NCBI GenBank assembly: GCA_029204225.1
Contig: CM055111.1
Coordinates: 25,488,404-25,552,403 of the forward strand
Origin: Diphasiastrum complanatum
Lineage: Eukaryota; Streptophyta; Lycopodiopsida; Lycopodiales; Lycopodiaceae
DNA: 64,000 bases
Direction: 5' to 3'
The position numbers and the translations under genes were made by a program. Shown in pieces: positions 4,743-63,282 of the stretch (within the stretch, counting starts at the first letter, position 1; the number at the start of each line of letters is the position of its first letter). Below the pieces are notes generated by a model, which had not been told where the DNA came from, ran no database searches, and was given only the letters and a program-made list of their open reading frames with translations.

Positions 4743-7700
4743 ATGCCACGAGGTTATCATGAGGTCTTGAAGCTGGCCACCATCCTCTTATTCCGATGCA
4801 GCGTAAGGCTGTTGTTGGTGATTTGCATGGTAGCATACAGAAGCAGCGGCCATATTACAGCAACAGCAGCGTCTCCTGAAGTCAGTATTTTGCTAGATCT
4901 GCAAAACAGCCTTGTCGATCCTCATGATCTTCTTGACAACTGGAACTCATCCGATTTGCTGCCATGTGAGTGGACAGGAGTTAGCTGCAACAATGCCACA
5001 GGCTTGGTCACTGCATTGGATCTTTCGGACATGGACTTGGAAGGACCTGTGCCGCAGGGAGTCTGTCAGTTACAAAACCTCACTTTTCTCAACCTAGGAA
5101 ACAATTATCTCAGTGGGCAGTTTCCTCAAAAATTGCTTGAATGCACCAGGTTGATCTACCTTAATGTGAGCCAGAATTTGATTGTAGATATCCTTCCAGA
5201 AAACATCTCCCAACTTAATCTGTTAAGAGATCTCGATTTAAGTGGCAATAACTTCTCGGGTTCAATACCTCCGGGCTTTGGAGAGCTTCCTGAGCTACAA
5301 AGCTTGAATTTAACGAACAACCTACTGAATGAAACTATTCCTGGGTATCTGGGGAAGCTGAGCCAGCTGAAATGGCTTGATCTTGCATACAATCCTTACC
5401 AGTTGGGAAGGATTCCAGAAGAACTCGGAAACCTGACCCAGCTGCTCAATCTCCACATGACTATGGCCAATTTGATTGGCCCTATCCCAGCCTCCTTTGG
5501 GAATCTCACAGAGCTCACATACTTCTTTGATTTGTCACATAATTTTCTGGAGGGAAGCATTCCTCCAGGAATCATGCGCCTTCCAAAGCTTACCAAAATG
5601 GAGCTGTATGACAACTTGCTCTCAGGGGAGATTCCTTGGAATCTTAAAGGCTTGTTGGCAATCACAGATATTGATCTATCAAGTAACAGGCTTAATGGAA
5701 GCATCCCTTCTGAAATTGGGCAGCTAAAGACCTTGGAGCTACTGCACTTGTGGTCTAATCAGCTAACAGGGGAGATACCAAATGGGCTTTCAAATCTACC
5801 AAACCTTGGAAGATTGAGACTTTTCAACAACAAATTGTCTGGTAATCTTCCACAAAGCTTTGGAATTGCATATCCTTATGTTTATTTTGATATCTCTATA
5901 AATCAGCTGCAAGGATCTATCCCTCCCTACCTATGCAATGGTGGTAAGCTACTCGAATTCATAGTTTTCAATAATAATTTCTCGGGAAATCTTCCAGAGA
6001 CTTATGGTAATTGCTCCAGCTTGTTTAGGGTTTTTGTCAACAATAACAGACTGTCTGGGATGATCCCTACTGGCTTCTGGAATTCCTCCCACCTCTACAT
6101 AGCTGATTTCTCCTACAATAAATTTGAGGGCATTATTCCTCCAGAAATTGGCCTGGCTAGCAACCTCACAAGCCTCAAATTATCAGCGAATGATTTCAAT
6201 GGCAGCATTCCGCTTGAAATAGGCAAGGCGACAAATCTCAACAAGTTCATGGCGAGCTATAATCGATTCTCTAGCAGTATTCCAGTAGAAGTAGGCAATC
6301 TAGTTAGCTTGAATCAGCTCTATCTAGATCACAATCAGTTCACAGGAAGCATACCCTCAACACTTGGCAACTGCTACAAATTGTCCATTCTTATGCTGTC
6401 CAACAACAGGCTAATGGGTTCCATTCCATTCGGGCTTGGTAACCTTTCAGTGCTCACTCAACTTGATCTTTCACATAATCAACTAAATGAAACTATTCCT
6501 TCGGAGCTAGGAAATCTTAGATTCTCAGATTTTAATGTCTCTTTCAACAATCTAGTGGGATCAGTGCCCAAAGGATTGATAATTGGTGCTTTCAACACTA
6601 GCTTCATAGGCAATCCGGGGCTCTGTGGGGAGCATTTGGATGGCTTAAGCTCTTGCGTTCAAATGGGAAGCCGCCACAATGATGGACATACAGCTTTGAT
6701 ATGGATATCTGCAGTAGGCACATGCCTGGTTGGAATAGTCTTCCTTGTGGGAGGATTAAGCTTCTTATTCAGAAAATCATGCAACCCATTCCAGGAAAAG
6801 CAATCTAGCACATTGTGGAGCCTGACATCTTTTCACAGGTTAGCATTCAATGAGTATGATGTGCCAGGAAGCTTGGATGAGGACAACGTGATAGGAAGTG
6901 GCGGATCTGGTACAGTTTACAAGAGCACACTAAACAATGGCCAGACAGTAGCAGTAAAGAAGCTTTGGACAAACAGCAAGGGAAACATTTTGCAGGACCA
7001 TGGATTCAAGGCAGAGATAGAGACATTGGGTAAGGTTCGCCACAAGAACATAGTAAAGCTCTTGTGCAGCTACTCTAGTGCGGATGGCAATTTGCTGGTG
7101 TATGAGTACATGCCAAATGGTAGTCTGGGAGATTTGCTTCATGGACCAAAGGCTGGTACGTTGGATTGGGCAACCCGCTATAAAATTGCTCTAGGTGCAG
7201 CTGAGGGCCTAGCATATCTCCACCATGACTACACCCCTCCAATCTTGCATTGCGATGTGAAATCGAACAATATTCTGCTAGATGAAGATTATGAAGCTCA
7301 TGTTGCCGACTTTGGGGTTGCCAAGATTCTTGAGAGCTGCTCGGAAGATGTCTCCATGTCGAGAATTACTGGCACATATGGCTACATTGCTCCAGGTAAC
7401 AGGCCACTTACCTCATTCACCAACAAAGCTTTTTTTTCTTAATTCTCTCTTCATTTTCCCTACAATACAACAACCTTTATGTTCTGCTTGCATCTCTTTG
7501 ATTAGCTTCTGCTATTCTATTCTAGTACCTCGCGAAATCTTTTTCACAAATATATCAGGCGTAGTTTACTAGTTGACAGTAATTTCTCTTTTACAATAAG
7601 AGACTGACATCTTTAGATTTTCCCTTGTGTTTGCAGAATATGCCTACACGTTGAAGGTGAATGAGAAGAGTGATATTTATAGCTTTGGTGTTGTGCTACT

Positions 7701-19180: not shown

Positions 19181-21789
19181 AAAAGTCCTCCAATTCAGCT
19201 TGGTGTGCTTGCTAATGATGGAGATCTAGATCCATGGTGGATTGATAGTGGAGCAAGTTCACACATGACTTTTCACAAAGAGTACTTCACTTCTTTGTTG
19301 GCATATGGAGATGACAAGAGGGTGTTTTACATAGCCAATGATGGGATTGGCACAATTCCTATTTCTCTCTCTACAAATAGGAGTTCATTCTATCTATTAC
19401 CAAGAATTTTACTTATTGTGAGTCAATTGCCAAGTAAAGGCCTCGAAGTTGAGTTTGATGGAGATGCTTATGATCAAAAGGAAGGATATCTTGATTGCAA
19501 AAGGTAAAAGACAAGAGAAGTTGTTCAAACTAGATGCTTGTGTTATTGCTAACCAAGTTGGATGTGTTGCAAGAGAGCAAATACCTATTCAAGAGGTTTG
19601 GCATAAAAGGATCAACTTCAAGTCATTTGAGGTAATGCCTAGAAAGCAAGTTGTGATAGGTCTTCCAAATTCTTTAAAAAGTAGCAATCATGTTTGCGAG
19701 TCTTGTGCTTTGTCAAAGTCACATAGACTACCTTATACTAGATCTACATCTAATCTACAAAGCCTTTTCAAGTTGTACATTCGGATGCTCATGGAATTAC
19801 TACAATTAGCAATAGTGGAGCTAAGATGTATGTAGCTTTCATTGATAATTTTAGTAGATTTTGTTGGATCTCTCTACTAAAGAGCAAGAATGAAGTGTAT
19901 GCTCTCTTTGTTAAGTTCAAGAATGCAAGGGAGAACCAATTTTCCACAAGGATCAAGTGCTTAGGGAGTGACAATGGTGGAGAGTACATATCTACCAAGT
20001 TCAAGGCTTTTTGTGATAAGCATGGGATCAAGATCCGTGAGTATACAACACCAAGGATCCCACAACAAAATGGAGTGGCTGAAAGGAAGAATAGGACTTT
20101 ATGTGAAAGTGCTGAAGCCATGAGTTCAAGTGCTAACCTTGGTAAGCCATTTTGAGATCAAGCTTTGTTGTGTGCTGATTTCTTGTGCTATAGGTGGCCA
20201 AGTGCTATTTTGGATGGAAGGACACCTTTTGAGAGAGGAGGTCGAGTGTCGACTTTCTTAGAACTTTTGTATGCACATGCTATGTCAACATTACACTTGA
20301 TGATAGGACCAAGGAGGATCCCTCTTCAAGGAAAGGTATACGTTTTGGATATAGTGAGGTGAGTAAAGCCTATAAGGTTTACATTCCTTCTACTAACAAG
20401 GTGATTGTTGGTAGAAATGTCATTTTTTATGAGGGAAACATTCCAAAAGTAACTTCAAGCATTATTGATGGTGATGTGGATGGATCTAACATTCTTGATG
20501 TTGATGTAAAGGATCCTACTTTAGATGGTGAGATAAAGGACCATCATCAAGTCAAAAGCCAAGGAGAACATCAAGGGAAAGACAAATGCCTTCAAGGCTC
20601 ACATATGATGAAAAGGATAAGCAAGTAGTTTTTGGAAATTATATTGCTTTCCTAACCTCTTTTGATGAACCTTCAAGCGTAGATGAAGCAAGGAACAAAG
20701 AGGAGTGGATCCAAGCAATGGATCTTGAGTATCAAGCTCTTATGAAGAATGGAACATGGAGATTGGTGGAGTTATCTAAGGACAAGAAAGTTATTGGATG
20801 CAAATGGATCTTCAAGGTGAAGTAAACAAAGATGGATCTATCAATAAGTACAAGGCAAGGTTGGTGGCAAAAGGTTATGCTCAAGAACATGGGATTGACT
20901 ATGATGGAACCTTTGCACCCGTGGCAAAGATGGTGAGTATTCGGATCATCATTTCCCTTGCTACTCTTTATGGATGGGATCTATGGAAATTGGACATTAC
21001 AAATATTTTTTTGAATGGTGATCTTGTGGAGGAAGTGTACATGAAGCAACCCGAGAGCTACATTTCTTCTACCAAGCCAAAGCATGTGTGTTTACTACAA
21101 AAGAGTTTGTATGGCCTTAAGCAAGCACCAAGGAGTTGGTATGCTAAGATTAACACTTTTTTACTCTCTCAAGGCTTTGTTATGAGTGAGTATGATCATT
21201 CACTTTATTATAGGTTTGCTAGAAATGATGTTACCATCTTGCTAATCTATGTGGATGATATCATCTTGAGTGGTGGAGACAATCAAGATGTGGAATGCAA
21301 GATCCTAGTGAGGAGCATTGGAAGCTAGGGAAACGAGTTTTGAGGTACATCATTGGAAGTCGAGATTTTCATAGGTGATGGAGCTATATCATCGATGTCG
21401 AAGAAACAAGCCACTATCTCATTGTCATCTAGTGAGGCCGAGTACAAAGCTCTTACACATTGCACGAAGGAGATGATATGGATCAAGAGGATGATCAAGG
21501 ATCTTCACTTACTGGATTTTTCAGACAGCCCAATCATCTTTGTGACAATCTATCAGCCCAAAGGTTTCTAACTAGTCCTATCTTTCATGCTAGGAGCAAG
21601 CATATTGAGGTGGCGTATCACTTTGTGAGGGAGCAGGCCATGGCAAAGGAGATGGAGCTTCAACATGTGTCCTCAGGGAATGTGTAGCTGATATCTTCAC
21701 CAAAGCATTGGGAAAGGACTTGTTCATGAATCATAGGACTTCACTTGGAGTGTTTTCAAAGTCTATACTTAAACTAATTTAAGAGAGAG
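19180..21789 (+). mobile_element. Degraded Ty1/copia retrotransposon, protease to RNase H
   Basis: The plus strand holds protease DPWWIDSGASSHMT, GAG-pre-integrase VWHKR, zinc motif CESCALSKSH, integrase VAFIDNFSRFCW with LGSDNGGEYIST, and PQQNGVAERKNRTL. RT follows with KYKARLVAKGYAQEHGIDYD and the catalytic YVDD, then RNase H SLSSSEAEYKALT and HARSKHIEVAYHFVREQ. At least six frameshifts or stops break it. After YVDDIILSGGDNQ the frame jumps to QDPSEEHWKLGKRVLRYI, removing roughly a hundred residues of RT and connection. It is closely related to the young element at 23373-29894 and may represent its autonomous partner type, though it is itself dead. No 5' LTR was found. Confidence 0.9.
21780..21789 (+). 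promoter_or_regulatory. Polypurine tract of the copia relic
   Basis: AAGAGAGAG immediately precedes the TGTGAAAG that starts the 3' LTR. This is the usual position of the plus-strand primer. Confidence 0.65.
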
Positions 21790-22360
21790 TGTGAAAGATT
21801 TCAACTAGTTTTGCTATTTTTGCCATATTTGTATATTTGGCGATTGAGGCCAATTTTCATATTAGACTTAGAGTTTGACTTTTAAAAGTTATATTACTCT
21901 AAAGTCATTTGAATAAACACTTTTGGAAAGTGTGAGAAACTATAGAACACGAGATCTGGAGGGATTCAATTTGAGTAGTAGATACATTGAATCTAGTCAC
22001 AAAAATAGTAGGGTTTTCATTATGGAGGGAGAAACAAAGTTTGAATTTAGGTTTGGACCTGTTATAAAAGGATGTAAGTCATGGGAAGAGAAGACATTCT
22101 CTCTCTCTTACCTCATTCATGCTTATACATGGTTCTCTTGGGTTCTACTATCCAATGGTGCACTATACTTGTGATATCTTGCAATTCTATGTGTACAATG
22201 TTTATTAATTGTTATTTTCATATCCACACGTGTGGAATATAGTAGCTTACTATTTTTGTATGAACAGCAGCATTATTTTATGTTTTGATTGATGTTTGAT
22301 CAAGATCTATTAGAGTTTGCATCTCATTCATAGTGTAGATGTTGATTTTTCTACATTGGC
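21790..22360 (+). repeat. 3' LTR of the copia relic (right end approximate)
   Basis: Starts TGTGAAAGATTTC directly after the polypurine tract. A TATAAAAG box lies near 22063 and a perfect 14-bp palindrome, TCCACACGTGTGGA, at 22223-22236. The end is placed near a terminal CTACA because minus-strand copia RNase H sequence starts by about 22440. Confidence 0.6.
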
Positions 22361-22439
22361 AAGATTGGTGATATGCTTGTCTATCTAACCAAAGATCAAA
22401 GAGACATTTTGGATCTTAATGATCTGAAATTCTTCAAAA

Positions 22440-23372
22440 AATCTAGGGTTGGCCGATAATACAATGGCACTCTGATTATTACATAATGTAATTGTCAAGG
22501 TAAACTGATTCAAACTAATGTTTGACAATAAATTTCTCAACCAAAATGCTTATTTAATAGATTGAGAAACAACAATATACTCTGTTTCTGTCAAGGAAAG
22601 AGCAATAGAGATTTGTTATGGCTATTCCAAGAGATAGGACTGTCATTGAGGAAGAATGTAATCCAAATGTGGATTTACAAATATCTGCATCTCCTCCCCA
22701 ACTTCCATTGAAATATCCACCGAGCCGATGAAGATTGTCGTTGTCGACTTCTCCATAGCAGATGGACTAGTCCGTAGTAGCTCGAATGTATCTCATGACT
22801 CTTACAAGAGCCTTACAATGATCCAAGTATCGATTGATAAAGATACTCTCTCATATGCTCCTCTTTCTGCTTGGTCTGAGGACATTGGTCCTTCGACAAT
22901 CGCTGGCCTGGATTCAGCGGTGAGTGATCTAATTTACAATTGATCAGATTATATATGATAAGAGTATTGTGAAGATAATGTTGTTGAGTGATATAGATCA
23001 GCCGTCTCGCTGTCCCTGTGAATTTGAATGCCCAAACAGTAGTGAGCTTCACCAGATCGGTCATGTCAAATTTGGAAGACATCATCCGTTTAGATTCCTT
23101 CACCATATTGGTACTGTTGCTGAAAAGCAACGTGTAGTCGATGTACAAGGTGATGATAATGAAGGAATGATGCATTGACTTGAATTAAATATTGCAGTAG
23201 GCAATGCTTGGTTGAATATTGTGTTGGATGAGGAATGTGTTGATCCTCTGAAAACAAGCTCTTGCTTATTGCTTCAGGCCATTCCATCAGAGTTACCAGA
23301 GGATCAAGAATTTGAGTCTGGAGATACACATCATGCTCAAGGGTGGTTTATGGAGTTTACAGACATGATGTC
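22440..23372 (-). pseudogene. Old copia element, RT-RNase H half (split by nested insertion)
   Basis: Minus-strand frame 23175-22813 reads FIIITLYIDYTLLFSNSTNM, an RT catalytic box with YVDD changed to YIDY, then SSKFDMTDL and EYLYQSILGSL. Further down, degraded RNase H motifs such as SLTEAEY-like sequence extend to about 22440. The reading frame upstream of 23372 continues at 29895 once the young copia element and one copy of its 5-bp duplication are set aside. Confidence 0.85.
23368..23372. other. Target-site duplication, left copy (ATGTC)
   Basis: ATGTC directly abuts the left LTR and is repeated at 29895-29899. Five bases is the usual copia duplication length. Confidence 0.95.
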
Positions 23373-24026
23373 TGTGAAAAATACAGATCCTAAGTGGATC
23401 TAAACTCCAAGATCATTGGCTTGAATGCTTGCACTCCAAACTACATAAGCTAGGAATTGGCAACACATTCTATGCTACCTAGAATGCAAAGAACTTGATC
23501 AAAAAGCATTTATCACAAATGGAAACTTCCATAAACATCAAGTGCGGCCCAAAATAGCATTATACAGTCCATAATACATCAGCCTACCACTTTTGGAAAG
23601 CACCTAAGATCATACACAATAGCTTGAAGACAATACACACAACAATGCTCTCAATGGAGGAAGAAACAATGACAATGATCTATTGATCTCAATGAAGCAT
23701 ACAAAAGGTTTCTCCAACCTGTTCTCCACGAATTTCAGCCTAATATAGGTGAGAGAGATGACTCTCTCTCCTCTCTCTAGAACTTAGGACCCAATTTTAG
23801 GACACCAGTAACCTAAAATAGCCAATTTTGGCCTATATGTCCAAATAACATGATTTTAGTGTCATTTAGAAGGTCCCGAAGTTTGAGACTTCTTCAACAT
23901 GAAATATATACTAGAATAAAAGTATCTAGGTCTCTTTCACACGTGTGAAAGGTTAGATCCAAAACTATGTACAAAAATTGCCAATTTAGGCCTCAAACTA
24001 GCTAGGAAATGTTGACAATTTTCACA
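23373..24026 (-). repeat. LTR (3' LTR relative to element)
   Basis: Reads TGTGAAAAATACAG...ATTTTCACA on the plus strand, with 4-bp TGTG/CACA inverted ends. It contains the 18-bp palindrome CTTTCACACGTGTGAAAG at 23934-23951. It matches the copy at 29241-29894 over all 654 positions as far as I can read. Confidence 0.96.
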
Positions 24027-24036
24027 CTCCCTCTTC
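24027..24036 (-). promoter_or_regulatory. Polypurine tract
   Basis: On the minus strand GAAGAGGGAG directly precedes the TGTGAAAATT of the 3' LTR. The same purine run precedes the 3' LTR of the related element at 62843. Confidence 0.85.
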
Positions 24037-24039
24037 AAC

Positions 24040-25303
24040 TTAACTTGCTAGTTTTACAACACTACTTTGCTCCAACCTAAGAATGATCTCCATCATGATG
24101 ATAGATCTCTTTTCAAGTGTTCTAATATGTACAATATGAAGTACAACATAATTGATATAGATAATAGTGCCCATATAGGATGCTTCACTATTTCTTACAT
24201 CAATTTTACATAGAATGGTGAACAAGATACATGTAAAAGAACATAGAATAACAATGAAAGGATTCCTCCATGTATCCACCTTTGAGTTCTCTATAAAACA
24301 GCAGCAAACAAGTTGTAAGTGAAAGTAACCAACAGGTGTTTGCATGCCTCGTCCACATTCCACTATGCCCATAGTGAATGCACCATGTATCTCCATGAAT
24401 GAACCTCCATCACCACCTTGCCTTTGTAGATCTCCAATCCACGAAAGCCCTTGAGTGAATGAATGCCAAAATGATGTGTTCTCTGTTCCATTTGAATGAG
24501 CAAAACCTGAACTTGAAATACTTGAAGTATCTCCACAAGATTTGCATATAACGCTTGATCCTACATTGTCAACAATTTGCCAATTTGCCAACACTAGGAT
24601 GCTAGATCTTGAACTTTGCTCAAAAGTAAACATATTGACCACTTCCATATCTTTTGAGATTTGAATGAATGCATGTACTTGATCATAAAAACCAGCAATG
24701 ATAACTATTCCATCTCCAAGATCCAAAAGATGCAAAACTGTGCAACTAGTTTCATTGAATTTTGACAATTCCAACACATTGACATGACAATGTTCATACA
24801 TGAGATTAAACAAGTAAGGTAGAGTAAAAGGACACTTCCTTGCTGCTCCAAGAACCTTACTTGAACCTTCAAGGACCTGCAAAAACAGATCCAAGATGCT
24901 TTGCCCATGTGGCTCCCCTTTCATGCTTTTGACTAGCTTCCAATTGCTACTTGCCTCTTGGTGTTGATGAAGCAATTCAAGATCAACATCTTGATCTTCC
25001 AATAAAACATCAAGGACTTTGCATTTATAAACATCTTCAGATCTGAACCTCTGAAGAAACTCCCTCTCAAACACATGATTAACATCCCACAAGATCTCAT
25101 CATTGCTTGATTTCAACCTTTCACTATAGTTAGTGAAAACAATGTCACCATCATAAACCAAAAGATAGATTTCTACACTTCTATCCAACATGAAGTAGAG
25201 TAGATGAAGTTGAGTATCAAACCTAATAAAACCAGCCCATTTGAGCTCAAACCAAACCTCAACGAGATCTTCCTTGCCTTGAAGAAATTGCCACTTGAGT
25301 TGC
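24040..25303 (-). other. Unknown 3' coding module (about 420 aa)
   Basis: This is the part of the polyprotein after the RT breakpoint. A second copy lies at about 61565-62829 on the plus strand, about 5-6% diverged over the roughly 450 bp I compared. The comparison shows length differences of 3, 6 and 12 nt, plus one 1-nt deletion in the second copy. The module is acidic in its middle third and Ser/Gly-rich near the CKSCGD motif, and ends in hydrophobic segments. It could be a captured host gene, a highly diverged env-like ORF, or a private ORF of a TR-GAG-like lineage. Confidence 0.8.
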
Positions 25304-28068
25304 TCCATGTAAATATCTTCTTCAAGATCACCATTCAAGAAGGCATTAGTAACATCCATTTGCCACATATCCCAATCATAAAGAGTTGCAAGAGAGATTA
25401 GGATTCGAATAGTTACCATCTTTGCCACGGGTGCAAAGGTCTCATCATAGTCAATACCATATTCTTGAGCATACCCCTTTGCCACCAACCTTGCCTTGTA
25501 CTTGTTGATTGATCCATCTTGATTTGTCTTGATCTTGAAGATCCACTTACAACCAATTGCCTTCTTGTCCTTTGGAAGCTTTACCAACCTCCATGTGTTG
25601 CTTTTGATGAGTGCTTGATGCTCATGATCCATGGCTTGGATCCATTCCTTCTTTTGAATTGCTTCACCTACACAAGTTGGTTCATCAAAAGAGGTAAGAA
25701 AAGCAAAGTTAGAGTTGTCCACCACTTGCTTTCCTTTTTCATCATAGGTTAGCCTTGATGGCTTAGCCCTTTGCCTTTGAGTCTTCCTTGAAGTTTGCTT
25801 TGGAGTGGCTTCTCCATCTTCATCCAAGACATCTTGCACATCATGATGATTAGTAGGCACATCAACATCAACATCAACAACATTGGAAACATTCTCTTCA
25901 TGAAAGATGACATCCCTACTTATGACAACTTTCTTTGTAGAAGGAATGTACACTTTGTAAGCCTTGCTTACTTCACTATAGCCAACAAACACACCCTTCT
26001 TTGATGAAGGATCTTCTTTAGTTCTATCATCAAGTGTGATATTGACAAAACATGTACATCCAAAGATCCTACAATGCTTGACACTCGGCCTTCTACCATA
26101 AAGAACCTCATGAGGAGTTTTACCATCCAAGGAAGCACTTGTCCATCTATTACATAGATAGTTAGCACATGCTAAAGCTTCCCCCCAAAAAGACTTAGCA
26201 AGATTAGCATGTAGTCTCATTGCCTTGGCACATTCACAAAGGGTTCTATTCTTCCTCTCGGCCACTCCATTCTGTTGTGGAGTCCTAGGACTAGACATCT
26301 CCCTCTTAATCCCATGTGCTATACAAAAGTCTTTGAACCTATTTGAGGTGTATTCCCCTCCATTATCAGATCTTAAGCATTTGATCTTTGTATTGAATTG
26401 GTTTTCCATTTCATTCTTGAACTTGACAAATGCAGCAAACACTTCATCCTTACTTTTAAGAAGATAGATCCAAGTATACCTACTAAAGTCATCAATGAAA
26501 GTTGCATACATCTTTGCCCCACCATTGCTAGTTGTACTAGAAGAATGAATATCAGAATGCACAAGTTGAAAAGCTTCTTTAGATCTAGAAGTAGATCTAG
26601 AATAAGCAAGTCTATGAGATTTGGACAAGGCACAATGTTCACAAACACTATTGTTTGCAACAAGACTTTTAGGGAGACCAAGAACAAGCTCTTTCTTTGC
26701 CATTACCTCCAAAGATTTGAAGTTGGGATGGCCCAACCTCTTGTGCCAAACTTCTTGGTTTGTCAATTGCTCCCTAGCCATACATCCTTCATGATTAGAG
26801 ATCACACATGCATCAAGCTTGAAAAGTTTACCATGCCTCCTACCTTGAGCAATCAAGGATCCACATTTACTTATCAAACATGCATCTCCAATGAACTCCA
26901 CATCAAGTCCTTTGTCAATCATTTGACTTACACTAAGCAAATTCTTAGTGATTGAAGGAATGTACAAAACATTTTCAAGATTTGCTTTCCTATTTGTTGA
27001 AAGGGAAATAGGAATAGTGCCTATGCCTTTGATGTCACATTGACCATCATTTGCAGTGTAGATGATGTTACCTTCTCCCTCATAAGACAATAAGGATGTA
27101 AAGTATTCCTTATGTCTTGTCATGTGAGATGAGGCTCCACTATCAATCCACCAAGGATCATTATCATCTATGTTGGCTAACAAACTTGAAGTCATAACAA
27201 GTGATTCACATGTGTTATGTTCTTCCTCATCTATTGTAAGATTTCCTTGCCTCTCTCCTTGCTCTCTTTTCTTCTTATAACATTCATTTGCAAAATGACC
27301 TTTTATCCCACAATAAAAGCACTTGAACTTTGACTTATTGTTCTTAGTAGAAGAGGAAGAGGAAGAGTGATCATCATGATCAAAGTTACCACCTTTGGAC
27401 CATTTCCCTTTGCCTTTACCTTTGCCCTTGAATTTGCCTTTTGTGAAGAAAGCCTCTTCACCTCCACCTTGCAAGGATGCACCATCAAGCTTTGATTGCA
27501 ACCTATGTTCTTCAGCCAATAAGATTTCTTGCAAGTCAACCACACTTGGCAAGACTCTTTGAATGGCAAAACTTTGCACAAGGTTAGCATGTTCATTTAG
27601 CAAACCATTCAACATAACTTGGACTATTTCACCATCTTTTATGTTCTCATCAATGCATGCTAAATCATCACTTAGGGACTTAACTCTCAAGATAAATGCA
27701 TGAGCACTTTCACCCTCTCTTTGCCTACTAGAAAATATTTGTCTCCTTAGGGTCAATACCCTAGATGTGGACTTTGATTCAAAGAGCTTCTTTAAGGCAT
27801 TCCATGCCTCACTTGCACTTTGACACTTTCCAACTTCCTTGAGAAGTTCATTTGTAGCATTCATTTTAATGATATGAAGAGCCCTTTTGGCCTTCTTATC
27901 AAACCTTTGTTGCTCTTGAAGTGTGAGAGGTCTCTCTTCAATTTCTGCAACTATGTCCATGAGTTCATTCAACTCAAGTAAGGACTCCATCCTCACTTTC
28001 CAAGTAGAGTAGTTTGATGAACTCAACCTTTCACTAGACTCTAGCATGATCCCACCATTGGAAGCCAT
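24040..28068 (-). CDS. Copia Gag-protease-integrase-partial RT polyprotein fused to unknown 3' module
   Basis: A single intact 1342-residue frame. Residues 1-240 are copia Gag (UBN2-like, starting MASNGGIMLE and including ESSERLSSSNYSTWKV). A CCHC knuckle, CFYCGIKGHFANEC, lies near 249, and protease WWIDSGASSHMT near 307-320. GAG-pre-integrase WHKRLGHPNF lies near 440, and integrase landmarks are FIDDFSRYTW near 530, RSDNGGEY near 566 and PQQNGVAERKNRTL near 595. The RT N-terminal part runs from TWRLVKLP to TNAFLNGDLEEDIYMEQ near 921. There the copia sequence stops, before the YVDD box. Residues 922-1342 (LKWQFLQGKE to the end) match no copia domain or family I know. They include a CKSCGD motif, a CCCF patch and a likely membrane segment near 1258-1275. 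The start is the conserved Gag methionine shared with the second element. Confidence 0.93.
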   Translation of the reverse strand: MASNGGIMLESSERLSSSNYSTWKVRMESLLELNELMDIVAEIEERPLTLQEQQRFDKKAKRALHIIKMNATNELLKEVGKCQSASEAWNALKKLFESKSTSRVLTLRRQIFSSRQREGESAHAFILRVKSLSDDLACIDENIKDGEIVQVMLNGLLNEHANLVQSFAIQRVLPSVVDLQEILLAEEHRLQSKLDGASLQGGGEEAFFTKGKFKGKGKGKGKWSKGGNFDHDDHSSSSSSTKNNKSKFKCFYCGIKGHFANECYKKKREQGERQGNLTIDEEEHNTCESLVMTSSLLANIDDNDPWWIDSGASSHMTRHKEYFTSLLSYEGEGNIIYTANDGQCDIKGIGTIPISLSTNRKANLENVLYIPSITKNLLSVSQMIDKGLDVEFIGDACLISKCGSLIAQGRRHGKLFKLDACVISNHEGCMAREQLTNQEVWHKRLGHPNFKSLEVMAKKELVLGLPKSLVANNSVCEHCALSKSHRLAYSRSTSRSKEAFQLVHSDIHSSSTTSNGGAKMYATFIDDFSRYTWIYLLKSKDEVFAAFVKFKNEMENQFNTKIKCLRSDNGGEYTSNRFKDFCIAHGIKREMSSPRTPQQNGVAERKNRTLCECAKAMRLHANLAKSFWGEALACANYLCNRWTSASLDGKTPHEVLYGRRPSVKHCRIFGCTCFVNITLDDRTKEDPSSKKGVFVGYSEVSKAYKVYIPSTKKVVISRDVIFHEENVSNVVDVDVDVPTNHHDVQDVLDEDGEATPKQTSRKTQRQRAKPSRLTYDEKGKQVVDNSNFAFLTSFDEPTCVGEAIQKKEWIQAMDHEHQALIKSNTWRLVKLPKDKKAIGCKWIFKIKTNQDGSINKYKARLVAKGYAQEYGIDYDETFAPVAKMVTIRILISLATLYDWDMWQMDVTNAFLNGDLEEDIYMEQLKWQFLQGKEDLVEVWFELKWAGFIRFDTQLHLLYFMLDRSVEIYLLVYDGDIVFTNYSERLKSSNDEILWDVNHVFEREFLQRFRSEDVYKCKVLDVLLEDQDVDLELLHQHQEASSNWKLVKSMKGEPHGQSILDLFLQVLEGSSKVLGAARKCPFTLPYLFNLMYEHCHVNVLELSKFNETSCTVLHLLDLGDGIVIIAGFYDQVHAFIQISKDMEVVNMFTFEQSSRSSILVLANWQIVDNVGSSVICKSCGDTSSISSSGFAHSNGTENTSFWHSFTQGLSWIGDLQRQGGDGGSFMEIHGAFTMGIVECGRGMQTPVGYFHLQLVCCCFIENSKVDTWRNPFIVILCSFTCILFTILCKIDVRNSEASYMGTIIYINYVVLHIVHIRTLEKRSIIMMEIILRLEQSSVVKLAS

Positions 28069-29228
28069 GATTCTAATGTTTCTTCAACTTTTAGGTTCTG
28101 TCCTAAAGCACTTAGCACTCACTTTTCTCTCAACAAATGATAGATAAAGAGATCTATGAAGATTTAGGACCCTAAAACACTTCTATCTTGAACCTAGATG
28201 GTTTCCAAGCATAGAAAGGAAGATTGAAACACATGCAACACTTTGCACACACTAAGAATGGATTACAAAATCAAACCAACCTGAACACACTCTTGCTTAA
28301 GCTCTCAAACTTTCCAGCAAGTGACCAAATCAAGTTATGGTGTGAAGAGTTACTTGCATTCTTAGAAAATACCCAAAACTAGGATGCCAAGATTACCTAG
28401 TAATGAACAAACTTGATCAACATATGATCAACACACTAAGATATTGATTCAACCTGTAAAACCACATGTAAACCACACTTCTAAAAGTTTATAAACTCCA
28501 GCAAGTGATAAATACAAGATTTAGAGGTGAATGAATGAGCACACTTAGTGAATCACAAGACTAGCTTCACTATCTTGTCAAATCTTGGTGTTTAGATGTA
28601 GATCTAAGATCACTTCACATGAGAATGTTCCTCAACCTGTTAAGAACCTGAAAACACACTTGCATAATGGTTAACACCTTCCAGCAAATGCTCCAATCAA
28701 ATTACATAAGGAGAGTTACTTACATGCTCAACAAAGTACACCAAAATTTATGCCAAAATTGATGACAATCTTTACAATATGCTCTTCACAATGGAGCTTA
28801 CAATATGTTCACCCAAAAAAGGGGATCTTTCATCCAAATGGGAGCTTTGCTCAGCCTTTAGGAGAATTACAACTCACTCAAAAGAGCATTTGTCATCCAC
28901 TTAAGGAGAAGTTTCATCCACTTAAGGAGAGTGTTCATCCAAGAATGGAGATTGTCAACAATAGGATTGAAAAGAACATTGTTAGTATTGAATATGCACA
29001 AGCCTCACAATCACAAATGATTAGGTGTTATGATCTGAACCAAAATAGTTTCTTTTCAGCCTCTGATCTTCAATAGACTTGAAATATGCTTTTGATCCAC
29101 AAGTTCAACTCACAAAACAAAGGTTAGTAAGATTTGATCAACAAAGCAATGCAAAATCATGCTAGAACTTGATCAAACATCCAAATATCACCAAAAATGG
29201 AATACTTACTGTAAATAGAAGCCAACCA
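28069..29228 (-). other. Long untranslated leader of the young copia element
   Basis: About 1.16 kb between the PBS and the Gag start, with no long minus-strand frame. It contains a short tandem repeat built on a 20-bp unit with CACTTAAGGAGA at about 28895-28965. It is collinear with 58265-59262 of the related element. Confidence 0.8.
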
Positions 29229-29240
29229 GCTCTGATACCA
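29229..29240 (-). promoter_or_regulatory. Primer binding site (tRNA-iMet type)
   Basis: On the minus strand TGGTATCAGAGC immediately follows the 5' LTR. This is the standard plant copia PBS, complementary to the 3' end of initiator methionine tRNA. Confidence 0.93.
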
Positions 29241-29894
29241 TGTGAAAAATACAGATCCTAAGTGGATCTAAACTCCAAGATCATTGGCTTGAATGCTTGC
29301 ACTCCAAACTACATAAGCTAGGAATTGGCAACACATTCTATGCTACCTAGAATGCAAAGAACTTGATCAAAAAGCATTTATCACAAATGGAAACTTCCAT
29401 AAACATCAAGTGCGGCCCAAAATAGCATTATACAGTCCATAATACATCAGCCTACCACTTTTGGAAAGCACCTAAGATCATACACAATAGCTTGAAGACA
29501 ATACACACAACAATGCTCTCAATGGAGGAAGAAACAATGACAATGATCTATTGATCTCAATGAAGCATACAAAAGGTTTCTCCAACCTGTTCTCCACGAA
29601 TTTCAGCCTAATATAGGTGAGAGAGATGACTCTCTCTCCTCTCTCTAGAACTTAGGACCCAATTTTAGGACACCAGTAACCTAAAATAGCCAATTTTGGC
29701 CTATATGTCCAAATAACATGATTTTAGTGTCATTTAGAAGGTCCCGAAGTTTGAGACTTCTTCAACATGAAATATATACTAGAATAAAAGTATCTAGGTC
29801 TCTTTCACACGTGTGAAAGGTTAGATCCAAAACTATGTACAAAAATTGCCAATTTAGGCCTCAAACTAGCTAGGAAATGTTGACAATTTTCACA
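29241..29894 (-). repeat. LTR (5' LTR relative to element)
   Basis: A 654-bp LTR matching 23373-24026. The 18-bp CACACGTGTG-centred palindrome lies at 29802-29819. Confidence 0.96.
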
Positions 29895-29899
29895 ATGTC
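29895..29899. other. Target-site duplication, right copy (ATGTC)
   Basis: A perfect match to 23368-23372. Confidence 0.95.
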
Positions 29900-31330
29900 T
29901 CATACCTTCAAGAACATATCCTTCATGTTGTAGCATGTAGATGTCTTTTTCGATGACTCTGTTAAGATAAGTTGTATGTATATCGAGTTGAATCCAAAAA
30001 CTCGGAGGTTCTTCAATGAAGGCTTAGATCCTGTCCAAACCTCATGTGGTGTTTTGCTTGAGAGGCCTTGGTCGAACATCTATTCTAGATGTAAGCTACA
30101 GTGGAGGTAGTTTCAGCCCATAAGCTCTTTGGCAAAGATGTGTGCGCTAGCATGCATTTGGCTAACTCGACCAGAGTACGAGTACTCCTCTTGGCTAAGC
30201 CGTTTGATTGAGGTGAATAGGGAGTGATAAACTGTTGTTCAATGCCTTGGCTCTGGCAGCACTCGTTGAATTCGGTAGAGATATACTCTCCACCATTGTC
30301 GGACCTCATGGCTTTGATTGTTTTGCCAATTTCTTTCTCTGCATGCTCCTTGAAGTTTTTGAAGCAATCAAAAGCTTATGATTTCTTCTTACTAAAGTAC
30401 ACCAATGTGCATTGGATATACAGTAGCCTTGGAATAAAGTATTCCTTAGTTAAGGAAGGGACTCAGCTCAACTGCATACAAGCCATCATCTTGTGTGTTA
30501 TTGTCGCCCAGGTGAACATATCTCTTGGTACTGTAAGGCGTATAGGACTTGAAACAACTGATATAGTTGATCATGTGTTGTGTGGCTCCAGAATCTAAAA
30601 ATCATGGGCTGTCGTTTGATGATTCTTGATGGCTAGTCATGAATGCATCATGATCCACTTCTTGATTGGGTTGTGGTACTTCTACAACTGCATTTGCCAC
30701 TTGATTTGATTGTGCTTTGTTGTTGTTCTTGGCTTGTAGTATGCGGCAATCTCGTGGTTGGTTTGCTTGTAGTATCTACAGAATAACTTATTCCTTGTCG
30801 GCGGGTTTGACTGCTCTTGACATTGTGTCAGCTTCTAGCTTTGTTTTGGTTGCTTCAGGCCTTTCTTCTTCTGCTTAGTCTAGCCTTTGTTGGTGTATAA
30901 GGTGTGAGAGTCAGCAGTCGAGAAATTGGAGGGTTCATTCCTTCTAGTGTCTTCCCACAGCAACATTGTGATGACTCTTGAAAGAGTCAGCTCTGGGTGC
31001 GTCATGTTGATTATCACCCAGCTGTCGTATGAGGTTGACAAGCTTGAAAGTATTAGCGCAAGCATCTTCTGCCTCTACTTCTCTATTAGCGCCTATTCTT
31101 CCTCTATTAGCAGCTAATCAGCCCTTGTGTGCTGCGATTCTACTTGACAGAGATTCTGCCAAACAACGGGTCTGCTTGGTAACAGGTCTGCTATGGCTTC
31201 TAGCGACTGTCTGGTTGTAGTACAATGTTAGTGTGTCTCGCTTGTTAGTGGCACACCTACAACCTGATTTGAATCCTTGATTGACAATGGTAGCTCATCT
31301 TGGATATAGGATCTGTCAGGAACTTGATTT
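29895..31330 (-). pseudogene. Old copia element, Gag to RT-start half (split by nested insertion)
   Basis: Minus-strand order: Gag-like SSLSTSYDSWVIINMTHPE (about 31065-30880), a degraded zinc knuckle, a protease relic near 30600, integrase VYFSKKKS, then MRSDNGGEYISTEFNECC and SLPKSLWAETTSTVAYI. The sequence then jumps from the integrase tail SLKNLRVFGF (about 30010) to an RT segment with EKDIYMLQ and GYVLEG near the breakpoint. The middle of integrase-RT is missing, and so is the GAG-pre-integrase region near 30430. It continues in the 22440-23372 half. Confidence 0.85.
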
Positions 31331-44300: not shown

Positions 44301-46856
44301 AACTTTTGTATGACTTTTCTTTTGCATGTAGTATACTGAATTTGCAGGTGTACTGAGCAAGTAATAATTATCCCCATCCCCAAGCACTTTCTGATTTTCT
44401 ACAATTTCCACTTTTCCTGGAACAACCTGCAAGCGTTTGTAATCAGGATCTGTTTCATTATGCAGGGAACCCTCACCTCATGTACGTGGACACCGACATA
44501 TTTCTCGTAGTCTTTCAATATCGCCTCCACGCTATCGTACATCAAGGTCTCCTGTTTTACGAAGACACAGTCCTCCAAATAGACGTTCTCCTCGAAGGCA
44601 TTTGCGATCACCCCCTCAGTATCGATCTCCAGCACGACGCAGACGCTCACCTTCGCGTTCTCCTTCACTTCCAAGGCGTAGACATGCTCCCTTGCATTCA
44701 CCATCACCTCCATCAAGACGTAGGTATCCACACTCACCATCACCTCCAAGGCGTAGACGCTTACCACATTCTCGTTCACCCCCAAGGAGAAGGCACTCAC
44801 CTCGACGCTTACATTCACCTTCCAACCGAAGGTTTTCACCGTTGCATTCTCGCTCGCCTCCAATTCGACATCGCTCACCTGTCAGGCGACTCCGCTCACC
44901 ACTGCAGTCTCGTTCTCCTCCAAGGCGTTCTCCACCCTTGTCCCGATCTCCTGTAAGAAATCTACGCTCTCAACCACTTTCTCGGTCACCTGCACGGCGA
45001 TTGCACTCACCCCTACCACCTCGTTCGCCTGCAAGGCGTTTGCGATCGGCATTACCCTCTCGGTCCCCTGCAAGGCGTCTGCGTTCGCCGGTACAGTCTC
45101 GGTCTCCTGGAAGGCGTCTGCGTTCTCCTATGCAGTCTCATTCTCCGGCTAGGCGTCTGCGCTCACCAATGTATTCCCGTTCCCCTCCAAGGCAGCCGTG
45201 CTCTCCATTGCAGTCTCGCTCCCCGGCCAGGCGTATATGCTCACCTGTTTACTCTCCAAGAAGGAGTCTGCCTTCGCCAGTACTTGCTCACAGTTCTCCA
45301 TGGCATGCAAAATCTCCTTTGCAAGTTCGTTCACCTGTGAGGCGCATATCGTCACCTCCGCAGACGCATTCTCCTCCTAGGCGTACACGCACGCCCATGC
45401 ACTCTCCTTATGCGAAGCCAATTCATTCTCCTCTGCATTCCAATTCTCCTGACAAGTTTTCTGATTCGTCTTTGCACTCTCACTCACCCCAGCAGCCTGT
45501 GCAGAAAGAACCACACTCTCCATTGCATTTGCGTTCTTCTCCAAAACGAAAACGTTCTTTGCAAAATTCCCAATCACCTCCAAGGAAGAAGCAGTTGTCC
45601 CGACATCGGTCTCCTTTGGAAGCGCCTTCTCTTGCACATTCTCTTTCACCTAAGAGGCAACCAAAATCCCCTGTGCATTCTTGCTCTCCGAGGCAAAGGT
45701 TGAAACCTCCTACATCACATCCTTCTCAACGATCTCCTAGGTATGCTCCTTATCATTCTGGTCGTCCAGATTGTCTTTTGCTAAAGCAGCCTGCTGTCCT
45801 TTGGTGTCATGATATGAATACTTCACATTTGCTTTCCTAAGCTGCAAGGGGCAAGGGGCTTTGTTCAGATTCAGAACATTGACATTTTCTCCTTGTACAG
45901 TTCCGCAAATCCTGTGCCAAGTGGTAAACTATCGAGCAGAAGAGTTGAAGCTTTTAATGGACCATTCGTGCAATCTGCCAGTCCTCCAAGTACTGCCAAC
46001 AGTCATCGCAGGTAGGTCCTTGACTTATGCAAAAGTGATTCAGCTCTCTGTGTGTACTGTGCACCTTTTTCCCCCTTTGCAAGTCCTTTGTGGGGCTAGA
46101 GAAATTGAACTCCAGACCTTAACCAACACACTGCAGTTAGAACATCCGTAACTGATTATACCTGTGAAATGTTGCAGTCAAAGTCCTGTTCAAACTCAAA
46201 GAACTCTTAGCAGACAGCATGTAGTTCCTTACGGAGGAAGGGAACCAAGAGCAGCGGCAGGATCATTTCTACAAGATAGGTGAATAATCTTTTGTAATAC
46301 AAGTTGTAACAGGTAGATTGATTGGGTCTAAAGTACTTGTTAGCTTATGAATTTTGTTCATTGGATATTGTGTCTCATATTGAAAGCGAAACACTTAACA
46401 TGATCTGTTTAGGGTTGATGTAGTGTGGCACTGAGAGTGGTTATTAACTCCGCTCTGCTGTTGTCACGTCTTGTATTATGTTCATTCTCTGGTTATTGCT
46501 CCAGATCTCCTGGAACAAGTGAAGAAAGGCTTGAAGCAAAGAGACGTAAAAAAGAAGAGAGACGTGTACGGAGAGAACAGAAGCGAAAGAGACGGGAAGA
46601 AAGAAGGAAAAGGAGGGAGGAGAGGCGGACTGCAAAGGCTGCAGCTAAGTCAAACATATCTGTTGGTTGGGTATCTGCAAGAGTTAATATAAATAATGAC
46701 TCGGGAACATCTGATGGTGATGATGACAACGTCCCAGAAACAAGGCCTCGGACTGAGGATGAAGAAATGGAGAGTGAGCAAAAGAGGATTGAAAATGAGT
46801 TAAGGAAGAAAGCTCTCGAGTCACTGAGAGCTAGGAAGGGTATTTTGTCATCCTAA
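38316..46856 (+). CDS. SRRM1/SRm160-like PWI-domain splicing coactivator
   Basis: I recognise exons at 38316-38336, 38546-38635, 39140-39262, 39345-39512, 40093-40176, 40257-40402, 40750-40810, 44214-44285, 44466-45740, 45901-46011, 46178-46279 and 46505-46856, all GT-AG. The start MSGGFFRGT and the PWI domain (MDVMRPWIAARVTELLGFED, then IQLTGFMEKNT) are highly typical of plant SRRM1-like proteins, which act in nuclear pre-mRNA splicing. PWI folds bind nucleic acid. Exon 5 encodes a charged helix. Exons 8-10 encode a long RS/SP-rich region with 13-residue tandem repeats. The last exon has a KRKRREERRKRREERR helix and an acidic C terminus. The joint of exon 7 (phase 0) to exon 8 (needs phase 2) does not fit, so a small exon or alternative site in the 3.4-kb intron is missing from my model. 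The other joints keep frame. Confidence 0.9.
38775..39139 (+). repeat. Intronic minisatellite (about 28-bp unit, about 11 copies)
   Basis: Degenerate copies of GGCACAGCTTACATAGGGTT fill intron 2 of the splicing gene, with spacing of about 25-33 bp. The last unit merges into the 3' splice site: its GACACAG is used as the acceptor before exon 3. Most other units contain a matching CACAG, so the intron presents a ladder of acceptor-like sites. Confidence 0.88.
41440..41890 (+). repeat. Dispersed repeat family, copy 1
   Basis: Shares ordered blocks with 50580-50990, including CACCAGC/CACCAAC, TTAGGTTTTGAGCAAGTTGA, TATTTGATTGGCTTTGCTC, TTCATCATG and GTGCATGTGACCT. It has no coding capacity and no recognisable LTR or terminal repeat. 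It also contains an internal partial duplication of GAGCAAGTTGAAGTGA. Confidence 0.75.
42480..42760 (+). repeat. Dispersed repeat family, copy 2
   Basis: Collinear with the second half of copy 1: TTCAGCTCCAGAGAAGTGAT, ATTCAGTACACTGTTCGCTG, TACAAATGTG, GGGAGTATGGATGTTGTAG, and a block ending GCCACAGGGT that matches CTCCATAGGGT. Confidence 0.7.
43974..44011. repeat. C-rich tract (C8-12 blocks)
   Basis: Three C runs of about 8-12 bases separated by TAA, A and A. The opposite strand has G runs able to form a quadruplex. It lies about 200 bp before exon 8 of the splicing gene. Long homopolymers are also error-prone in sequencing. Confidence 0.85.
44941..45252 (+). repeat. Coding 39-bp tandem repeat in the RS domain
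   Basis: Eight units of 13 residues, consensus SRSPARRLRSPLQ, phased at 44941 plus multiples of 39. Units differ at a few positions, mostly conserving SP dipeptides and RR pairs. It lies in the large exon 9 of the splicing gene. Confidence 0.9.
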
Positions 46857-56715: not shown

Positions 56716-58024
<1,309 letters not shown>

Positions 58025-58249: not shown

Positions 58250-58399
58250 GATATATAGATTGTTTCAGGTCTATTGAAGATTAGAGGATGAGAAGAAGCT
58301 ATTTTGGATCAGATCATAACACCTAGTCATTTGTTGATTGTGAGGCTTGTGCATATTCAATACTAACAATGTTCTGTTCAATGTATTATTGACAATCTC

Positions 58400-58490
58400 C
58401 ACTTCTGTGGATGAACACTCTCCTTTGTGGATGAACACTCTCCTTAAGTGGATGAACCTTCTCCTTAAGTGGATGACAAATACTCTTTGA
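58400..58490 (+). repeat. Leader minisatellite (20-21-bp unit)
   Basis: About four units built on GTGGATGAACACTCTCCTTA. The young element has about three units on the other strand at 28895-28965, so copy number differs between the two elements. Confidence 0.8.
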
Positions 58491-59262
58491 GTGTTTTTGT
58501 ATTCCTCCAAAAGGCTAAGCAAAGCTCCCACTTGGATGAAAGATCCCCTTTTGGGTGAACAGATTGTCAACAATCTTTTGCATAAATTTTGGTGTACTTT
58601 GTTGAGCATGTAAGTAAATCTCCTTATGTAATTTGATTGGAGCATTTGCTGGAAGGTTTTAACCATTATGCGAATGTGTTTTCAGGTTCTTAACAGGTCG
58701 AGGAACATTCTCATGTGAAGTGATCTTAGATCTACATCTAAACACCAAGATTTGACAAGCTAGTGAAGCTAGTCTTGTGATTCACTAAGTGTGCTCTTTC
58801 TTTCACCTATAAAGCTTGTACTTATCACTTGCTAGAGTTTATAAACTTTTAGAAGTGTGGTTTACATGTGGTTTTACAGGTTGAATCAATATCTTAGTGT
58901 GTTAATCATATGATGATCAAGTTTGTTCAATTCTAGGTATTCTTGGCAGCCTAGTCATTTGTATTTTCTAAGAATGTAAGTAACTCTTCACACCATGGCT
59001 TGATTTGGTCACTTGCTGGAAAGTTTGAGAGCTTAAAAAGAGTGTTCAGGTTGGTTTGAGTTTGTAATCCATTCTTAGTGTGTGCAAAGTGTTGCATGTG
59101 TTTCAATCTTCCTTTCTATGCTTGGAAACCAACCAGTTTCAAGATAGAAGTGTTTTAGGGTTCTAGATCTTCTGAGATCTCCTTTTTTTATCATTTGTTG
59201 AGAGAAAAGTGAGTGCTAGGTGCATTAGGACAGAGCCTAAAAGTTGAAGAATCATTATATTC

Positions 59263-60211
59263 ATGGCTTCCAATGGTGGGATCATGCTAGAAACTAATGA
59301 TAGGTTGAGTTCATCAAACTACTCTACCTGGAAAGTGAGGATAGAATCCTTACTTGAGTTGAATGAACTCATGGACATAGTTGCAAGAACTGAAGAGAGA
59401 CCACCCACAGCTCAAGAGCAACAAAGGTTTGATAAGAAGTCTAAAAGGGCTCTTCATATCATTAAAATAAATGTTACCAATGAACGTCTCAAGGAAGTTG
59501 GTAAAAGTCAAAGTGCAAGTGAGGCATGGAATGCCTTGAAGAAGCTCTTTGAATCAAAGTCCACATCTAGGGTATTTACCCCAAGGAGGCAAATATTTTC
59601 TAGTAGACAAAGAGAGGGAGAAAGTGCTCATGCATTTGTCTTGAGGGTTAAGTCCTTAAGTGATGATCTAGCATGCATTAATGAAAGCATAAAAGATGGT
59701 GAAATAGTCCAGGTTATGTTGAACGATTTGCTAGATGAACATGCTAACCTTGTGCAAAGTTTTGCAATTCAAAGAGTCTTGCCAAGTGTGGTTGACTTGC
59801 AGGAAATCTTATTGGCTAAAGAACATAGGTTGCAATCAAAGCTTGATGGTGCATCCTTGCAAGGTGGAGGTGAAGAGGCTTTCTTCACAAAAGGCAAAGT
59901 CAAAGGAAAAGGTAAAGGCAAAGGGAAATGGTCCAAAGGTGGTGACTCGGATCATGATGATCACTCTTCCTCCTCTTCTACTTCTTTTAGAAAGAAAGAT
60001 AAGTCAAAGTTCAAGTGCTTTTATTGTGGGATAAAACGTCATTTTGCAAATGAATGTCATAAGGTGCAAAGTAATGAAGGTAGCAAGCAAAACAACTTTT
60101 GTACTTCTAATGAGGATCTAGATTCTTGTGATTATCTCATGATGTGTTTTTCAAGTCTAATGTCAAGTGGAAGTGACAAGGATTCATGGTGGATAGATAG
60201 TGGATCTAGTT
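59263..60211 (+). CDS. Copia Gag plus protease start, stop in the protease motif
   Basis: Same N terminus as the young element (MASNGGIMLE), with the same Gag fold landmarks (SEAWNALKKLFESKSTSRVF, SLSDDLACI). The knuckle is CFYCGIKRHFANEC, with Gly changed to Arg. The frame ends in the protease signature WWIDSGSS followed directly by a stop at about 60212-60214. A second stop follows near 60262. A free Gag of about 316 residues could still be made. Confidence 0.85.
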
Positions 60212-60273
60212 GACACATGACTAGTCACAAGGAGTTCTTTACTTCTTTGATCTCTTATGTTTAAACCAAAAAA

Positions 60274-60642
60274 GTGGTTCACATGCCAAATGGTGGTGAG
60301 TGTATGATCAAAGGTATTGGCTCAATTCATATTTGGCTTTCTACTAATAGTAATGCAAGGCTTGATGGTGTTCTTTACATTCCTTCACTTTCAAAGAATT
60401 TGCTAAGTGTTGGTCAAATGTTAAAGAAAGGATACAAGACAAAGTTTGTTAGAGATGTTTGTTTCATTACTAAAAGAGATGTCTTGATTTCTAGGGGCAA
60501 TAGACAAGGTAGACTTTACAAGCTTGATGCATTTGTTATGTCCAACAAGAGGAATGAAATGGATGTTGGTGGTTCTCTCAACTTTCAAAAGTCAATTCCT
60601 AGCATCAATAAGTTTGGTAGATCTTATGCAAAGTCTAAATAG
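60274..60642 (+). pseudogene. Protease/GAG-pre-integrase remnant
   Basis: Continues the copia order with LYIPSLSKNLLSVGQMLKKG and GRLYKLDAFVMSN, then loses similarity before any integrase core. It belongs to a copia relative distinct from the young element in this segment. Confidence 0.75.
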
Positions 60643-60790
60643 ATTTCTTATGCTAGATCTAGGTTGAGATCTAATGAGCTTCTTGGAGATAGTTATTGTT
60701 GTACTAACTTGGCAACTTTTGGTGAATCTATGATCAATGTTTTGGAACCATCCGAGATCTTGAAGATGGAGTAGTGCTACCTATTAGTCA

Positions 60791-62829: not shown

Positions 62830-62831
62830 GT

Positions 62832-62842
62832 TGAAGAGGGAG
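62832..62842 (+). promoter_or_regulatory. Polypurine tract of the truncated element
   Basis: GAAGAGGGAG directly precedes the TGTGAAAATT of the 3' LTR, as in the young element. Confidence 0.85.
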
Positions 62843-63282
62843 TGTGAAAATTGTCGACATTTCCTAGCTAGTTTGAGGCCTAAATTGGCAATTTTTGTAC
62901 ATAGTTTTGGATCTAAGCTTTCACACATGTGAAAGAGGCCTAGATACTTTTAGTTTAGTATATATTTTATATTGAAGAAGTCTCAAACTTTAGGACCTTC
63001 GAAATGACATCAAAATCATGTTATTTGGACATATAGGCCAAAATTGGCTATTTTAGGCTATTGGTGTCCTGAAATTGGGTCCTAAGTTCTAGAGAGAGGA
63101 GAGAGAGTCATCTCTCTCACCTATATTAGGCTGAAATTCGTGGATAACAGGTTGGAGAAACTTATTGTGTTGTTGAGAGAGATCAATAGATCATTGTCAC
63201 AGTTTCTTCTTCCATTGAGAGCATTACGTTGTGTATTGTCTTCAAGCTCTTGAGTATGATCTTAGGTGCTATCCAAAAGTGG
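62843..63282 (+). repeat. 3' LTR, truncated copy of the 654-bp LTR
   Basis: Matches the first 440 bp of the young LTR (read in element orientation) with scattered substitutions, then stops at CCAAAAGTGG where a gypsy LTR begins. The G-box palindrome has decayed to CACACATGTGA at 62922-62932. Confidence 0.9.

Follow-up and report, generated by a model that had tools for sequence, protein, structure and literature searches.

A recently inserted, probably recombinant copia retrotransposon of Diphasiastrum complanatum with a coding-like module of no recognised family beside its 3′ LTR

How can a retrotransposon without a detectable reverse transcriptase (RT) core or RNase H have inserted recently, and what is the coding-like sequence that stands in their place? 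Both questions are raised by a Ty1/copia element (element A) of the lycopod Diphasiastrum complanatum, located in a 64,000-nucleotide stretch of contig CM055111.1 (the window, numbered from its first letter). The initial annotation of this locus described ordinary copia order up to the RT motif EEDIYMEQ, followed in the same open frame by 420 codons (the module) with neither RT nor RNase H, and proposed that the module had replaced the RT core, that the element had moved recently and in trans, and that the module might have a selected, perhaps env-like, role. Here, we assess these proposals and suggest a different origin for the arrangement.

Results

Element A has the hallmarks of a copia element, including TG/CA ends of the long terminal repeats (LTRs), a primer binding site (which we take, from its tRNA match, to be of the initiator-tRNA-Met type), a polypurine tract and a 5-bp target duplication (Table 1). 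A single open reading frame (ORF) of 1,342 codons (28068–24040, minus strand) ends, as initially described, 13 nt ahead of the 3′ LTR, and its Pfam domains follow the order gag, zinc knuckle (below the Pfam cut-off), Pol_BBD, pre-integrase, integrase core, SH3-like and RVT_2. RVT_2 covers residues 824–924 only (positions 2–101 of the 244-position profile), bearing out the description of copia order up to EEDIYMEQ: gag, integrase and the start of RT are in place, and the remaining RT and RNase H were undetectable with Pfam and a dedicated profile.

Table 1. Positions of the parts of elements A and B and of the insertion target of element A in the window
Feature	Positions	Strand	Remarks
Element A, whole	23373–29894	minus	Ty1/copia LTR retrotransposon
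Element A 5′ LTR	29241–29894	minus	TG...CA ends; LTR pair identity 654/654
Element A primer binding site	29226–29240	minus	TGGTATCAGAGCTGG; adjoins 5′ LTR; read directly
Element A gag to just past zinc knuckle	27274–28068	minus	Retrotran_gag_2; B-like
Element A protease, integrase, N-terminal RT	25303–27273	minus	Copia ancestry other than that of gag
Element A module	24040–25302	minus	420 codons and stop; in frame with pol
Element A polypurine tract	24027–24039	minus	GTTGAAGAGGGAG; 13 nt; adjoins 3′ LTR
Element A 3′ LTR	23373–24026	minus	Identical to 5′ LTR
Older copia element, remains	22403–23280 and 29895–30426	minus	Split in RT region by insertion of A
Element B, whole	58263–63283	plus	Older copy; 5′-truncated, 3′ LTR cut
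Element B leader	58263–59262	plus	5′ end truncated; 910/974 identical to A leader, 11 indels
Element B gag and degenerate protease/BBD	59263–60545	plus	Two stops in aligned protease part
Element B upstream part of unassigned region	60546–61564	plus	About 1.02 kb; missing from A
Element B module copy	61565–62829	plus	1192/1253 identical to A; 1-nt indel relative to A
Element B polypurine tract	62830–62842	plus	13 nt; same as that of A
Element B 3′ LTR	62843–63283	plus	Truncated at 441 of 654; 406/441 identical to A

Although RT palm motifs and RNase H were not detected, the two LTRs of element A are identical and a perfect duplication (ATGTC, at 23368–23372 and 29895–29899) bounds it. When the flanks were joined, RT similarity to P0086 grew from residues 1004–1159 to 962–1159, and this extension of copia similarity over the insertion site places element A inside an older copia element. 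Given the identical LTRs, the duplication and the restored RT of the target, element A is a non-autonomous copia element that moved recently, and, without RT palm motifs and RNase H of its own, it was likely mobilised in trans, as would be expected from copia biology; on both points, we agree with the initial annotation.

Restriction of the module to this one element, with an ordinary RT–RNase H in its place in many other genomic copies, would have told against the initial reading, but a second copy of the module, missed initially, lies in element B (Table 1); within the 64-kb window, the LTR of this family occurs only in A and B. In element B, the module forms the 3′ half of an approximately 2.3-kb region of no recognised family that directly follows gag–protease. 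An ORF at 60791–61705 enters the module from upstream in the frame used by A, adding 258 codons, so the initial description of a 420-residue unit holds for the codon count in A but not for the module as such. A 1-nt indel approximately 110 bp inside the B module parts the two frames of B, and further upstream (60546–60790) the gag–protease frame looks coding, yet contains two stops. Judged from these frames, the original unassigned region of a B-type element may have spanned approximately 680 to 760 codons. Neither integrase nor RT was detected in element B (Pfam, tblastn and profile searches), nor was copia similarity found upstream of its module (Pfam for 60791–61705; tblastn; profile). A faint resemblance between 60546–60790 and the zinc-finger tail of integrase (score 39, a value reached in 23 of 1,000 shuffles) was not relied on; if real, it would shift the start of the unassigned region by approximately 150 bp. 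The truncated 5′ end of B is preceded by a long GA/AG simple repeat (57855–57977, approximately 290 bp away) and by a 348-codon ORF (56716–57762, approximately 500 bp away) with no Pfam match at 0.001; this ORF may represent a gene or belong to another element.

The module looks protein-coding. The 420 codons of its copy in A are free of internal stops, an openness beyond chance given that Markov-simulated sequences of the same composition (2,000 runs) averaged 24.6 stops per frame and that even the best of their three frames always contained at least 9. Codon-position bias exceeded that of 1,999 of the 2,000 simulated stop-free sequences for the A module and of all but 8 of 2,000 for the B ORF (60791–61702). 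Codon scores from a model trained on gag-pol separated the module frame weakly (open frame, 0.146 for A and 0.123 for B; third frame with stops omitted, 0.115 and 0.121, respectively; leader, up to 0.095; gag-pol itself, the training set, 0.292), so the coding status rests on the open frame and its periodicity.

Searches for relatives of the module were uniformly negative. Residues 923–1342 of A matched no Pfam family above its curated cut-off, the best candidate being TMEM18 (E = 0.081), and the module had no match at E ≤ 10 among 5.8 billion proteins, a search that uses shared 5-residue words and annotated proteins and whose silence on a transposon protein is thus weak evidence (candidates by the 0.55–1.75 rule spanned 738–2,348 residues in one search and 231–735 in the other). 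In the same collection, the gag-to-RT part of A matched 2,564 copia proteins; among the 120 matches listed, many came from named plants, with best local alignments 29–43% identical, showing that plant copia proteins are indeed represented. A scan of IMG/VR with the module gave 74 pattern matches, none of which was confirmed. Four candidates were set aside as chance: TMEM18, phrog_11551 (E = 0.072), mL74 (E = 0.24 and 0.43) and 4eog_A, whose E value rose from 0.0057 to 2.4 with a two-sequence profile. An AlphaFold model from the two-sequence input was uninformative (mean pLDDT 31).

That the module is itself a highly diverged or frame-shifted RT–RNase H, the other outcome that would have undone the initial reading, is highly improbable: by eye, a YLLVYDGDIV stretch at about the right place recalls the RT box, but a profile of 97 copia RT–RNase H tails (87 of them with a YVDD-like box) gave at most −1.8 bits (E = 0.92) for the A module and 140 bits for another copia element of the window (copia C), used as a positive control, and none of the 120 retrieved copia proteins matched either module copy (tblastn, 1e-3). 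With a working control for the profile and a concordant tblastn result, we reject this possibility.

Comparison of A with B revealed two ancestries along element A. The LTR (92.1% identical), leader (93.4%), gag to the zinc knuckle (92.8%; 738/795) and module (95.1%) are closely similar in the two elements, in contrast to 65.2% (309/474) in the protease–BBD part, and the remainder of the A gag-pol has no counterpart in B (blastn). Both the identity profile and the alignment place this abrupt break at the zinc knuckle (A 27274, B 60063), where dS climbs from 0.17 (gag) to 0.90 (protease–BBD), indicating that the change in relatedness is not just a matter of altered protein constraint. Across the junction on the right (A 25302/25303; B 61564/61565), A and B have GAGCAACTCAAG in common; its GAGCAA falls on the copia side and constitutes a microhomology of 6–7 nt (the seventh base, in GAGCAA(C), is deduced from copia C). 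When positions of B were paired at random with positions of copia C, the stand-in for the pol donor, shared runs of at least 6 nt had a frequency of 0.0033. The module frame is continuous both across the junction in A and from the upstream ORF in B, and, because the RT fold of A is cut midway while the B region runs on in frame, A has the derived arrangement.

Two further comparisons bear on the parents of element A. In the two copies compared, both in the window, silent divergence between A and B differs by segment: dS is 0.169 for gag but 0.065 for the module, a 2.6-fold difference (Fisher P = 0.004). One shared parent does not account for this, and it counts against a simple two-parent account of A; different B-type parents may have contributed its 5′ and 3′ parts, or further exchange may have occurred. 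Over protease, integrase and RT (19229–21046), copia C is approximately 70% identical to A at the DNA level, with a dN/dS of 0.12, implying that those pol lineages were long functional. Copia C itself (19229–22174) contains a YVDD box, with RNase H pieces in several frames.

Elsewhere in the window, an ORF at 4743–7442 encodes a leucine-rich repeat (LRR) receptor-kinase and ends within the kinase domain (profile positions 4–166 of 263), making it truncated, intron-split or a pseudogene. Another ORF (44602–45840, 412 codons) is rich in Arg-Ser-Pro repeats, with a splicing-factor-like low complexity by eye and no Pfam match at 0.001.

Discussion

Element A probably arose as a recombinant, in which a B-type non-autonomous element acquired an approximately 2-kb protease–integrase–RT segment from another copia lineage. 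This fits A better than the initially proposed replacement of the RT core within the element, as B carries the module with neither integrase nor RT. A B-type sister family, extending beyond the one degraded copy in the window and still mobile when it recombined, would have consisted of LTRs, leader and gag–protease, followed by the approximately 2.3-kb region coding for a protein of no recognised family where other copia elements have integrase, RT and RNase H, and would have relied on the enzymes of related autonomous copia elements. On the simplest account, RNAs of this family and of another copia lineage would have shared one particle, and reverse transcription would have switched templates twice, one switch falling close to the gag zinc knuckle, where the sequences are homologous, and the other at the GAGCAA(C) microhomology right after EEDIYMEQ. 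The product would have retained the B-type ends, gag and 3′ 420 codons, with protease, integrase and an RT stub as new acquisitions. It would then have been integrated with RT and RNase H supplied in trans by its partner, possibly in the same cycle. Selection need not be invoked for the in-frame fusion, because a homologous left switch keeps the frame and chance alone gives an in-frame right junction one time in three. Recombination between copies during bursts of a plant copia element is documented in the excerpted text of PMC5668417.

It is unlikely that the exchange took place in chromosomal DNA, by ectopic recombination or gene conversion of integrated copies, instead of during reverse transcription. 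Counting against our account, a comparable mosaic would result if integrated copies underwent gene conversion at the DNA level, and the window is dense in copia sequences (A, B, C and the nested target); however, just 6–7 nt are shared on the copia side of the right junction, which is little for gene conversion to act on, and copy A is recent. An artefactual join of two elements, conceivable amid dense repeats in the single assembly seen, is very hard to reconcile with two separate module copies that adjoin the same polypurine tract and LTR and with the perfect duplication that bounds A.

The recombinant origin of A is compatible with more than one origin and role of the module itself. Quite possibly, the module is a passenger, coding sequence that originated in the host or in a different element, was captured via RNA by a B-type ancestor, as in maize Bs1, and serves the element in no way. 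Since their divergence, the A and B copies of the module have accumulated 43.5 nonsynonymous and 15.5 synonymous changes (dN/dS 0.70), a ratio from two copies that does not differ from 1 (P = 0.20) and thus provides no significant sign of purifying selection or of the selected role initially proposed, whereas gag of the same copies is constrained (32.5 nonsynonymous and 24.5 synonymous changes; dN/dS 0.316, P = 5 × 10−5); one of the two module copies also has a frame-breaking 1-nt indel. Against a passenger, the gag and module ratios do not differ significantly from one another (Fisher P = 0.08), no relative was found in a protein collection that includes plant proteins, and the gag-pol-trained codon model scores the module higher than a model from the LRR-kinase gene of the window does (0.146 versus 0.003), a weak comparison given that the LRR-kinase model scores gag-pol itself at −0.002.

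A more tentative reading is that the module encodes an accessory protein under selection in the non-autonomous family (for example, a membrane-associated, env-like protein or a packaging aid). Beyond the 1-nt indel, both copies are open over the approximately 380 codons that they share, codon periodicity is evident, and 3 of the 4 indels in the module are multiples of three, compared with 2 of the 11 in the leader (Fisher P = 0.08). The module has one clear membrane-like stretch near residues 345–370, in keeping with the env-like resemblance initially suggested, and a second, marginal window from residue 187; the resemblance goes no further. Windows starting at 160–165 in the upstream ORF of B are likewise marginal. 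However, dN/dS is not significantly below 1, the hydrophobic stretch lies near the end and could be former untranslated sequence that is open by chance, and the structure model says nothing on the matter. We therefore regard a passenger role as somewhat more likely than a selected one. Further still, and improbably, a copia family may have become a modular combination of gag and a new protein, approximately 680–760 codons long and with its own function in the life cycle, which stably took over from integrase, RT and RNase H; such a family would borrow enzymes from other copia lineages and regain pieces of pol through recombination.

Maize Bs1, an LTR element without RT, was mobile. It carries transduced sequence, as the elements described here may, but, in the excerpts of PMC7264820, the Bs1 inserts are host genes, whereas the module is common to elements of two architectures and had no match in the protein collection searched. 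The same excerpts describe plant LTR elements with additional, env-like sense ORFs, which have in common with A a sense ORF ahead of the 3′ LTR with a membrane-like stretch; in A, this ORF forms one continuous frame with a pol lacking RT–RNase H, instead of following a complete pol. Env-like copia elements of the SIRE type likewise have a complete pol and then an env-like ORF, and element A has no complete pol.

A close parallel in the texts considered is the wheat Gypsy family RLG_Sabrina, whose semi- and non-autonomous variants, in the excerpted text of PMC9744471, encode GAG-Pro without RT and integrase, some with a unique segment for short proteins (four without homology), and for which RLG_Wilma is the proposed autonomous partner. 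With B, they share GAG-Pro in the absence of RT and integrase and, in some variants, such a segment. They differ in being Gypsy rather than copia elements and, in the short variants, in that the segment replaces GAG-Pro, whereas here it follows gag–protease and, in A, is also preceded within a single frame by integrase and the RT stub. For Onsen of Arabidopsis, the excerpts of PMC5668417 report pairwise recombination of family members in bursts, with junctions also in coding sequence. Those recombinants formed within one family, whereas A joins lineages that are about 65% alike at the protease, and one of its junctions lies in nearly unrelated sequence.

In the open-licence literature searched, we found no description of a copia element built in this way. 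Elements that are non-autonomous or recombinant, or that carry captured genes or additional ORFs, are all known (PMC9744471, PMC5668417, PMC7264820, PMC1950507). To what is known of non-autonomous LTR elements and of how they recombine with partners, the window adds a donor-like element (B) and a fresh in-frame recombinant (A), together with a coding-like module, without a relative found, that has been retained beside the 3′ LTR in two differently built elements. Elements A and B may thus be useful for testing how elements without their own enzymes are mobilised and how new combinations of pol arise.
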